This document shows positions 2,677 through 5,712 of a stretch of DNA of 64,000 nucleotides, one piece after another. The stretch lies in contig JAFQHP010000027.1 in NCBI GenBank assembly GCA_017397895.1, positions 1-64,000 on the forward strand. Reading direction: 5' to 3'. Within the stretch, counting starts at the first letter, position 1. Each line of letters starts with the position of its first letter. The DNA is from Clostridia bacterium. Lineage in GTDB: Bacteria > Bacillota > Clostridia > Christensenellales > Aristaeellaceae. The notes under the pieces are model-generated. The model searched no databases. It was not told where the DNA came from and saw only the letters and a list, made by a program, of their open reading frames with translations. The position numbers and the translations under genes were made by a program.

Positions 2677-2687
2677 CACAAACAAAG

Positions 2688-2720
2688 AGCCGGGAAGAAA
2701 CATTTCTTCCCGGCTTTTTT
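2688..2720. terminator. Bidirectional intrinsic terminator
   Basis: A 13-bp perfect stem, AGCCGGGAAGAAA (2688-2700) pairing with 2703-2715, followed by six T on the plus strand and a weaker T-rich run on the minus strand. It lies between the converging beta-mannosidase and HPr-like::nucleotidyltransferase genes. Confidence 0.9.
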
Positions 2721-2735
2721 CATTTCATTGTTTCA

Positions 2736-3764
2736 TTATTCCGCGCTCATTTCCTCCATGGCGTCGTAGCACAAATCCTCCGCCCGCTCCCGGTCAAAAA
2801 ACATTTCCCGGCTTTCATTGTAAGCGTTCAGCGCCGCCTGGATAACCCCCTGATAGCGGTGGTGCAGATTTTTGATGGCCCATTCGCCGCCGGTTTTCTT
2901 CGTCAGCACCAGCCCCTCCCGGAAATAAGCCAGGGCCCGGCACAGCGTCAGCACCACATAGACGGGGTTCTGGTCCAGGGATTCTGCGGCGTCCGCCATA
3001 TCGGCCCGGATGGCCTCCATGGCATCTTCCTTCTTAATTCCGCCAAACACCCGGTTCACACCGGGGCCCAGCACCACTTCCCCATAAGCATGGAGGGAGA
3101 GGATGTGGGTGGTCAGGTCCGGGTCGTTGCCATGCATGCGCTCGCAATAGCCCCGGGGGTCCTTTTCGTATTCCGCCGTCCATATGCTGCTGTAATGCAG
3201 CACATAAGGGATGGGAGGCACCGGCTCCTTGCAGTCTGCAGCCAGGAGCACACTCATTTCAAAACCCGCCGGCGGTGCATCCTTTCCCAGGGCGTACAAA
3301 CTTTCCACCAGGGCAATCTTCTTTTCCACCGTGGGGTCTTCGTTCACCACCACCAGGAAATCAATATCGCTCTTTTCCCAGTGGAAGCAATCCGCAGCCA
3401 GAGACCCGTGCAGGTAAATACCCACCAGGTTCTCTTTCAGTATCTCCAGATACTTTTCCTTGATATACTGCACAATCTTGTCCGCATCGCTCATGTCCTT
3501 GGGCGGGGCCACCCCTTCTTCCAGGGCCAGGCGCAGCGCTTCGGCGGCAGCCACTTCGTCCTCGCCTTCCACGGTGAGGATCACTTCATCCATCCCCGTC
3601 ACGCCCATGGAAAGCAGGCCCAGCATGGACTTGCCGTTGATCATCCGGTTTTTGTGCTCATACAAAACCCGGGACGAATAACGCCCGGCCAGACGCACCA
3701 GCCTTTCAATCTGCAGCCGGTTCAGGGGCGTTACCTTGGATAGGTCCAAAGAACAGCGGATCAT
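2736..3764 (-). CDS. Crh/HPr-like domain fused to AadA-like nucleotidyltransferase
   Basis: A 342-residue two-domain protein. Residues about 1-84 look like HPr of the phosphotransferase system: the KSMLGLLSMG stretch matches the region around regulatory Ser46. The usual phosphoryl-carrying GLHARPA segment is replaced by PLNRLQIERLV, so the active histidine is missing, as in Crh. Residues about 95-342 resemble AadA-type or DUF4111 aminoglycoside nucleotidyltransferases: GS followed by DIDFLVVV gives the metal-binding DxD pattern, and LCRALAYFREG with GGEWA matches the C-terminal helical part. The start overlaps whiA by 4 bp (ATGA), and AAGGTGAAG lies just upstream. In Bacillus, crh sits right after whiA, so position supports a Crh-type origin. 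Drug modification is not implied; the nucleotidyl acceptor is unknown. See the findings. Confidence 0.8.
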   Translation of the reverse strand: MIRCSLDLSKVTPLNRLQIERLVRLAGRYSSRVLYEHKNRMINGKSMLGLLSMGVTGMDEVILTVEGEDEVAAAEALRLALEEGVAPPKDMSDADKIVQYIKEKYLEILKENLVGIYLHGSLAADCFHWEKSDIDFLVVVNEDPTVEKKIALVESLYALGKDAPPAGFEMSVLLAADCKEPVPPIPYVLHYSSIWTAEYEKDPRGYCERMHGNDPDLTTHILSLHAYGEVVLGPGVNRVFGGIKKEDAMEAIRADMADAAESLDQNPVYVVLTLCRALAYFREGLVLTKKTGGEWAIKNLHHRYQGVIQAALNAYNESREMFFDRERAEDLCYDAMEEMSAE

Positions 3765-4717
3765 CTTTCTTCACCTTCGTTTTTCTCTTCATCCGCGGCA
3801 ATGAGGTTCATCAGTTTGCGCATTTTATGATTGGCGCCGGATTTGCCCACCGGCGTGGATAACATTTTTCCCAGTTCCTCCAGGGATACATCGGGGTTCA
3901 GCATGCGAAGCCTGCCAATTTCCTGCAAATCCCGGGGCAGCCCCCCCAGGCTGTGCTTCAGGGAATAGGCGGTGATCGCCGCCGCCTGCTTTGCCCCGGC
4001 GGAAAGCTGCTTATTGAGGTTTGCCTGGTCGCAATTGGTGGCCCGGTTGGCCTGGTTGCGGGAGTCCCGCCGGATGCGGATATTTTCCATCTCCATCAGG
4101 GATTGATGGGCACCCATCAGTGCCAGACAGTTCACCACATCATCGCCCTTTTTGATGTACACCACAGCATTTCCCCGCCGCTGGGTCACCCCGGCTGTCA
4201 GCTCGCTTTTTTCCAGGATGCCGGTAAGGATATCCGTACGGCCGGGAGAGGATACAAATTCCAGATGGTAGCTTTTATCCGGGTCGTTCATGGCGCCGGC
4301 GCTTAAAAACGCCGCCCGGAGAAAAGCCGCCCGGCAGCAGCGCCTTGTCTGGGCCGCCCGGGGAATGCCCCGGAATACGTCCCCTGCCTCTTCTTCCCGG
4401 AGCATCCGCAGGGATACCAGCAAATGCCGGCTGTCCTGCTCGCTGACGGTAAGCAAACAAGCCCTCCTTCCCCCCAGCCTTTCATAGCGGGTGAAGGATA
4501 AGGTGGCGGTGATTTCCAGCCGCTTTTTCAGCAGCAGGAAAATGCGCTTGGCCAGGGCCGCGCTTTCCGTTTCATAAACCACCTTCATCCGGCCGCCGCC
4601 GGCAAGGCGCAAAGACGCAATGCTCTGGGTGTAGGCGCTGATTTCGCTGAGCATACAGCAGCCCTTTTCCGGCTGCACCCGCAAAAGTTCCTCCTTCACC
4701 CCGGCAGAAAAGCTCAT
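3761..4717 (-). CDS. whiA: Sporulation/division regulator WhiA
   Basis: WhiA (DUF199) is a DNA-binding protein with an N-terminal fold derived from LAGLIDADG homing endonucleases and a C-terminal helix-turn-helix. It influences cell division and, in actinomycetes, sporulation. The 318-residue length is normal. Family hallmarks seen are the N-terminal FSAGVKEELLRV, the central RNQANRATNCDQANLNK stretch, and a C-terminal helix-turn-helix region around SLEELGKMLSTPVGKSGANH. It overlaps murB upstream by 4 bp and the HPr-like fusion downstream by 4 bp, so the three genes are probably translationally coupled. The usual partners rapZ and yvcK are absent between murB and whiA. Confidence 0.95.
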   Translation of the reverse strand: MSFSAGVKEELLRVQPEKGCCMLSEISAYTQSIASLRLAGGGRMKVVYETESAALAKRIFLLLKKRLEITATLSFTRYERLGGRRACLLTVSEQDSRHLLVSLRMLREEEAGDVFRGIPRAAQTRRCCRAAFLRAAFLSAGAMNDPDKSYHLEFVSSPGRTDILTGILEKSELTAGVTQRRGNAVVYIKKGDDVVNCLALMGAHQSLMEMENIRIRRDSRNQANRATNCDQANLNKQLSAGAKQAAAITAYSLKHSLGGLPRDLQEIGRLRMLNPDVSLEELGKMLSTPVGKSGANHKMRKLMNLIAADEEKNEGEER

Positions 4718-5622
4718 TCGTCCGTCCCCACAATGCGTACTTCATTTTCCAGATGCACACCGAAGTTCTTTTTCACTTCCGCCTGCACCAGTTTCATCAG
4801 TTCCAGAAAATCCCCGGCGGTGGCGCCGCCTTTGTTGATCAGAAAACCGGCGTGCTTTTCGCTCACCTGGGCGCCGCCCACGGTTTTCCCCTTCAGGCCG
4901 CTCTGTTCAATCAGGGCACCGGCAAAATACCCCTCCGGCCGCTTGAAAAAGCTGCCTGCGCTGGGATACTCCAGGGGCTGCTTATCCCGCCGCCGCTGGG
5001 CAAAATCCCGCATTTTGGCTTCAATTTCGCCTTTATTTCCTTTTTCCAGACGGAATGCCGCCCCAAGAATCAGGGCATTTTCGTCCATGGCGCGGCTGTG
5101 GCGATAGCCAAAGGCCATCTCTTCCCCCGGTACCTCCCTAATTTCACTTCCGTCAAACAGCCGCACATATTTCACCACCTGGCGCATTTCCCCGCTGTAA
5201 GCCCCGGCGTTCATATACACGCCGCCGCCCACGGTGCCGGGAATGCCCTGGGCGAATTCCAGCCCGGCAAAGCCTTGCTCCAGGGCGGTGCGGGAAAGCA
5301 CGCTCATCAGCGCCCCGGCCTGGGCATACAGCCCGTCTTCCGTTACATCAATGCAGCCAAATTCCTTCCCAAGCCGCACCACGGCGCCCCGGAAGCCGCC
5401 GTCCTTCACCAGCAGATTGCTGCCGTTGCCAAGGATGAGGCAGGGCACATTTTCTTCCCGCAATATGCGCAGCACGCCGCAGAAGGTTTCTTCCTTTTCT
5501 GCTGTCAGCAAATAATCTGCCCGGCCTCCCACCCGCAAGGTGGTCAGGCCTGCCAGAGGAATATCCTTCTGTACTGTCAGATCGAAAAACTGCTTTTGCA
5601 TCTGTTCCAGGATGTTTTTCAT
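4714..5622 (-). CDS. murB: UDP-N-acetylenolpyruvoylglucosamine reductase MurB
   Basis: FAD enzyme that reduces UDP-GlcNAc-enolpyruvate to UDP-MurNAc with NADPH, the second committed step of peptidoglycan precursor synthesis in the cytoplasm. The FAD-binding PCMH-type region shows GNGSNLLVKDGG and GIPGTVGGGVYMNAGAY; the C-terminal substrate domain has PSAGSFFKRP with the catalytic Ser, and NKGGATAGD, as in type II MurB. Length is 302 residues from the chosen ATG at 5622, which has AAGGAG six bases upstream; a longer in-frame start at 5688 would overlap the promoter. It heads the murB-whiA-HPr-like operon. Confidence 0.95.
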   Translation of the reverse strand: MKNILEQMQKQFFDLTVQKDIPLAGLTTLRVGGRADYLLTAEKEETFCGVLRILREENVPCLILGNGSNLLVKDGGFRGAVVRLGKEFGCIDVTEDGLYAQAGALMSVLSRTALEQGFAGLEFAQGIPGTVGGGVYMNAGAYSGEMRQVVKYVRLFDGSEIREVPGEEMAFGYRHSRAMDENALILGAAFRLEKGNKGEIEAKMRDFAQRRRDKQPLEYPSAGSFFKRPEGYFAGALIEQSGLKGKTVGGAQVSEKHAGFLINKGGATAGDFLELMKLVQAEVKKNFGVHLENEVRIVGTDE

Positions 5623-5644
5623 ACTGCGCTCCTTGTTGTTTTCC

Positions 5645-5673
5645 ATCATACCAAATTTTCTTTGCTTTTTCAA
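5645..5673 (-). promoter_or_regulatory. Promoter of murB-whiA operon
   Basis: Minus strand: -35 TTGAAA (5673-5668), 17-bp spacer, -10 TATGAT (5650-5645) with a TTTGG extended element. It lies 22 bp before the murB start. Confidence 0.75.
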
Positions 5674-5680
5674 GCAGGAA

Positions 5681-5712
5681 AACGCCACAATTTGTACATT
5701 ATGGCGTTATTT
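5681..5712 (-). terminator. Terminator after manA
   Basis: Inverted repeat AACGCCA (5681-5687) and TGGCGTT (5702-5708) with A/T-rich flanks on both sides. It lies 20 bp beyond the manA stop and just upstream of the murB promoter, so it separates the two minus-strand units. Confidence 0.7.

Follow-up and report, generated by a model that had tools for sequence, protein, structure and literature searches.

Positions 2736..3764 on the reverse strand of the window (the whole stretch of 64,000 nucleotides analysed) hold a single open reading frame with an ATG start, encoding a 342-residue protein in which an HPr/Crh-like domain is followed by an AadA-type nucleotidyltransferase. This domain order, proposed in an earlier note on the same DNA, is confirmed, and the architecture is conserved in public genomes far beyond chance expectation, with 30 full-length homologues. 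Judging by its sequence features, this stable fusion of a Crh-like domain and an AadA/ANT(9)-fold enzyme is best explained as a transferase that would be tuned in cis through phosphorylation of Ser46 by HPr kinase, a reading that we hold with about even confidence. Both halves belong to kinds already known, and it is their joined architecture that appears new. The author of the earlier note knew of no description of a Ser-phosphorylated carbon sensor gating a nucleotidyl transfer; our literature search found no paper describing a fusion of an HPr domain with a nucleotidyltransferase, including one linked to whiA.

Domain composition and the Crh-like half

The HPr/Crh-like domain comprises residues 1-86 (3507..3764, reverse strand) and the AadA/ANT(9)-type nucleotidyltransferase residues 91-342 (2739..3494, reverse strand). 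All Pfam matches exceeded their curated cut-offs: PTS-HPr at residues 20-82 (E 7.5e-12, 45.6 bits against a cut-off of 23), NTP_transf_2 at residues 103-152 (E 1.4e-5), Polbeta at residues 107-157 (E 2.5e-6) and AadA_C at residues 239-326 (E 2.2e-23). In the AlphaFold2 model of the protein (pLDDT 90.8, pTM 0.77), the predicted fold of residues 1-86 matched, by VIA-align, HPr structures (Z 14.9 to 3lnw over 85 residues, 1.7 A) and Crh in 1zvv (Z 13.8), and that of residues 90-342 matched ANT-3,9 (7uy4, Z 28.2), AadA (5g4a, Z 27.8) and ANT(9) (Z 27.0). Thus, both the HPr fold that the earlier note expected for residues 1-84 and the AadA-type enzyme with a GS...DID motif were recovered. For close pairs of fusions, dN/dS was ~0.02-0.14 in both domains, a sign of strong purifying selection; synonymous sites approach saturation in more distant pairs, whose ratios are less dependable.

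In standard HPr numbering (used here for positions 15, 17 and 46), the codon at the His15 position (3720..3722, reverse strand) encodes Asn within the motif PLNRLQ, and the alignment, whose 38 fused rows represent 31 distinct transferase sequences, has N, S, T or D at this position and never His. The Ser46 codon (3627..3629, reverse strand), the expected target of HPr kinase, lies within NGKSMLG, and Ser46 with KSxLG is invariant in the same 38 rows. The Crh-like character that had been suggested, with the His15 site altered and Ser46 kept, therefore stands. Since the phosphorylatable His is gone, the HPr half cannot join PTS sugar transport. A PTS phosphocarrier HPr has both a phosphorylatable His15 and Arg17; the fusions have neither, Arg17 not being kept in the alignment. 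Arg17 of HPr has a role in CcpA binding and is retained in Crh. The likeness to Bacillus Crh thus covers the HPr fold, the missing phosphorylatable His15, the retained Ser46 and the position of the gene directly after whiA, whereas the fusion differs in its added 250-residue enzyme, in lacking Arg17, and in being carried by genomes without MgsA and, in many cases, without Enzyme I. PTS multidomain proteins of the FruB type (EIIA-HPr) also contain an HPr domain within a fusion protein, but these keep His15 and carry phosphate, whereas the present fusion lacks the His and joins its HPr domain to a non-PTS partner.

The 41 stand-alone rows of the order, whiA-linked relatives among them, likewise all have Ser46, and a single one has His15, in a locus (L146) where no whiA was seen. 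Because these rows keep Ser46 and nearly all lack His15, the whiA-linked HPr of the order was of the Crh type before the fusion took place. Another HPr-like protein, ~75-96 residues long, which lacks the entire His15 loop and keeps DAKSILGIFSLDL with Ser46, occurs in each of the eight fusion genomes examined (in the genome of the window on contig C6, L002 1456-1686, reverse strand; also in L168-L171 and L173-L175). Besides the fusion, it is the only Ser46-type protein found in the three fusion genomes that have a PTS and, from its sequence, probably a further substrate of HPr kinase.

ATP site and substrate pocket of the transferase half

The ATP and magnesium residues of AadA are Ser36, Ser46, Asp47, Asp49, Glu87, Asp130, Arg192, Lys205 and Tyr231 (PMC6065190, PMC4631478), and the equivalents of all of them are invariant in 31/31 fused sequences. 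By alignment, the catalytic base Glu87 (PMC6065190) corresponds to Glu169 (3258..3260, reverse strand) and the ATP-binding Lys205 (PMC4631478) to Lys289 (2898..2900, reverse strand). The GS-x11-DID motif spans residues 120-135 (Gly120, Ser121, Asp133 and Asp135; 3360..3407, reverse strand), and its GS and DxD positions, whose conservation the earlier note had left to be checked, do not vary in 31/31 fused sequences and 36/36 stand-alone relatives. Because the ATP and magnesium residues and the catalytic base are all kept, the enzyme probably transfers AMP (or another NMP).

The antibiotic pocket is different. Asp182 and His/Asn185 are conserved in all ANT(9) and ANT(3'')(9) enzymes (PMC6065190), and Asp182 is needed for spectinomycin. 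In the fusions, within an ungapped stretch of the alignment, the Asp182 equivalent is Asp in 2/31 sequences and mostly Asn, and the His185 equivalent is Tyr in 31/31. The Trp112 equivalent falls in a gapped region; the nearest aromatic residue is Trp195, a position occupied by W, H or Y in relatives. With the Asp182 and His185 equivalents replaced, the protein is not an ANT(9) or ANT(3'')(9) enzyme by published criteria (PMC6065190). Its NCBIfam ANT scores are also far too low for the curated cut-offs (for ANT_9, 76.6 bits where 340 are required). Despite the replaced pocket, the transferase chemistry should be intact, as predicted from the conserved residues. AadA, ANT(3'')(9) and ANT(9) therefore resemble the enzyme half in the two-domain fold (Z 26-28), the GS...DxD motif and the Glu87, Arg192, Lys205 and Tyr231 equivalents, and differ from the fusion at positions 182 and 185, in the absence of an N-terminal HPr domain and of a chromosomal murB-whiA setting.

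Stand-alone AadA_C-type transferases of Christensenellales and other Clostridia share ~35-50% identity with the enzyme half and have the same ATP-site residues, with Tyr at position 185 in 35/36; the presumed change of acceptor thus predates the fusion. Unlike the fusion, they have no HPr domain, do not lie beside whiA in the loci examined and have no conserved neighbours in their short flanks: within 1.5 kb no informative recurrent neighbour was found, and none pointing to an acceptor.

Gene neighbourhood, distribution and origin

The genes murB (4714..5688), whiA (3761..4717; TIGR00647, E 3e-67) and the fusion gene lie head to tail on the reverse strand, murB first, and each junction is a 4-bp overlap. 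The 4-bp overlap with whiA given in the earlier note holds, the fusion start falling in the whiA stop, as ATGA. For murB, we consider the ATG at 5622 the likelier start. Consensus matching places a promoter-like site (TTGAAA-17-TATGAT, with TG before the -10 element) 5' of murB at 5645..5673, reverse strand, and a strong inverted repeat, terminator-like on both strands, at 2684..2719 beyond the fusion gene. The latter is common to the fusion and a convergent gene at 184-2676, which lies outside the murB-whiA-fusion unit and encodes an 830-residue GH2 beta-mannosidase-like protein (family assigned by eye from the sequence). In Bacillus, crh is likewise found directly 3' of whiA (PMC10714963), and the fusion occupies this same site here, as had been proposed, and in relatives.

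Among 150 genomes of the family, a full-length fusion match was found in eight, belonging to three genera, and in the remaining ones HPr-like and transferase matches occur at separate places. A scan of public genomes identified 30 further full-length loci, many of them in ruminant-gut MAGs and some labelled Christensenellaceae. The survey of whiA neighbours suggested earlier gave a consistent picture: whiA lies directly upstream of the fusion in 29/30 public loci, the remaining one being cut at its end, and the fusion adjoins whiA in 27/28 whiA-bearing genomes of the genus. Because of these full-length copies in 30 further loci and in 27/28 genomes of the genus, the fusion is no assembly accident. 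In one genome of the genus (G030, locus L184), an IMP-dehydrogenase-like gene comes next after murB-whiA and there is no HPr domain; this is an apparent natural loss, and the fusion is therefore dispensable in that genome. In other members of the order, whiA is followed by a stand-alone Crh-like gene, and the nucleotidyltransferase is encoded at another place. A second stand-alone copy was seen in 0/8 fusion genomes versus 38/142 others, and with eight fusion genomes these counts are too small to establish that such genomes avoid it.

A maximum-likelihood tree built from 31 fused transferases and 40 stand-alone ones unites all fused sequences in a single clade (support 100/99), and the fusion therefore arose once. 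Independent fusions elsewhere were also sought, and samples of 396 genomes of the order and 391 of the class gave no full-length match outside the fusion clade. The host lineage is one clade of uncultured, gut-dwelling Christensenellales-type Clostridia. Pairwise distances track WhiA distances (rho 0.87 for the transferase and 0.57 for the HPr domain), which fits mainly vertical descent, and the fusion is unsplit among proteins down to 48% whole-protein identity. Mobile carriage was rejected: no plasmid covered 80% of the fusion query (among the matches listed, the transferase half only was covered) and no viral contig carried the fusion.

HPr kinase, the PTS and proposed regulation in cis

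A gene for HPr kinase, whose presence had been anticipated, was found in 17/18 genomes tested. The genome of the window is one of them, and its kinase has an intact Walker A motif GESGVGKS and an EIRGIG signature. Immediately after hprK, this genome has a glucokinase-like gene of the ROK family (contig C21, L051 7672-9565), an adjacency in line with non-PTS glucose use. Of the 18 genomes tested, this one and 12 others lack PTS Enzyme I, and 5/8 fusion genomes, again including this one, lack EIIC. Three fusion genomes (G094, G134 and G004) have a PTS; their four HPrs with His15 carry Lys, Lys, Asn and Gly at position 46 (aligned by eye), so in these PTS-bearing genomes the His and Ser functions reside on different proteins. 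Having His15 without Ser46, these HPrs (L158 1495-1752, L159 1495-1752, L165 1486-1743 and L160) are a mirror image of the Crh-like proteins. Many Gram-positives lacking a sugar PTS retain HPr kinase together with whiA-adjacent Crh-like proteins.

The course of events that we infer would begin with HPr kinase/phosphorylase, which would phosphorylate Ser46 of the HPr half at high levels of glycolytic intermediates and ATP. As the HPr half is an expected substrate of this enzyme, its phosphorylation would report the glycolytic state. The phosphorylated domain would then most likely act in cis on the transferase joined to it, by changing its activity or the access of the acceptor. The transferase itself would probably attach AMP, or a different NMP, to a hydroxyl of an acceptor other than spectinomycin or streptomycin.

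Two outputs are described for Crh: MgsA (methylglyoxal synthase) is absent in 9/9 genomes tested, and CcpA is doubtful, since no protein in the fusion genomes exceeds the strict curated cut-off and the LacI-family relatives present fall below it. In one alternative, the Crh-like half serves for docking and recruits the transferase to a partner protein of Crh or HPr, such as HPr kinase or a LacI-type regulator, which would then be nucleotidylated, with Ser46 phosphorylation controlling binding rather than catalysis. HPr and Crh do act through binding partners, CcpA and MgsA (PMC4591507, PMC10714963), the HPr-like domain is conserved as a whole, and the pocket residues are off the antibiotic consensus; however, characterised AadA_C enzymes act on small molecules, and with MgsA missing and the regulators limited to LacI-type relatives below the CcpA cut-off we regard docking as unlikely. 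It is less plausible still that the Crh-like half is simply the Crh of the organism, a corepressor when phosphorylated at Ser46, with the transferase an independent enzyme sharing its expression. In favour of this, relatives have stand-alone Crh-like genes at the same site, with Ser46 and without His15, but the fusion has stayed unsplit over the divergence noted above, with both parts under purifying selection, and it lacks the Arg17 of Crh in genomes without a CcpA above the cut-off. An intrinsic aminoglycoside-resistance enzyme fused by chance to a Crh remnant would account for the fold, the family match and the intact ATP site, and is nevertheless highly improbable in view of the residues at positions 182 and 185, which depart from the ANT(9)/ANT(3'')(9) consensus (PMC6065190), the low ANT_9 score, the murB-whiA setting, the correlation of transferase and WhiA distances and the lack of any plasmid copy found. 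Finally, every known member derives from MAGs, but an identical junction recurs in ~30 assemblies of independent origin, covering many animals and projects, and this leaves a chimeric assembly or annotation artefact with a negligible probability.

Regulation of the transferase in cis by Ser46 phosphorylation hence remains our preferred reading, and the changed substrate pocket suggests that nucleotide transfer responds to carbon supply and does not serve drug resistance. An AadA-type match in a gut genome does not by itself denote a resistance gene, which calls for caution in annotation. The fusion names outright a partner activity for a Crh-like protein, and the question of why such proteins and HPr kinase are retained without a PTS becomes testable in terms of the effect of Ser46 phosphorylation on nucleotidyl transfer and of the identity of the acceptor. 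We tentatively propose, as a possibility somewhat short of an even chance, that the HPr kinase-switched transferase converts the glycolytic state into covalent nucleotidylation of a metabolite or protein. If true, this would give the HprK/Crh pathway a new output, one that requires no PTS, CcpA or MgsA.
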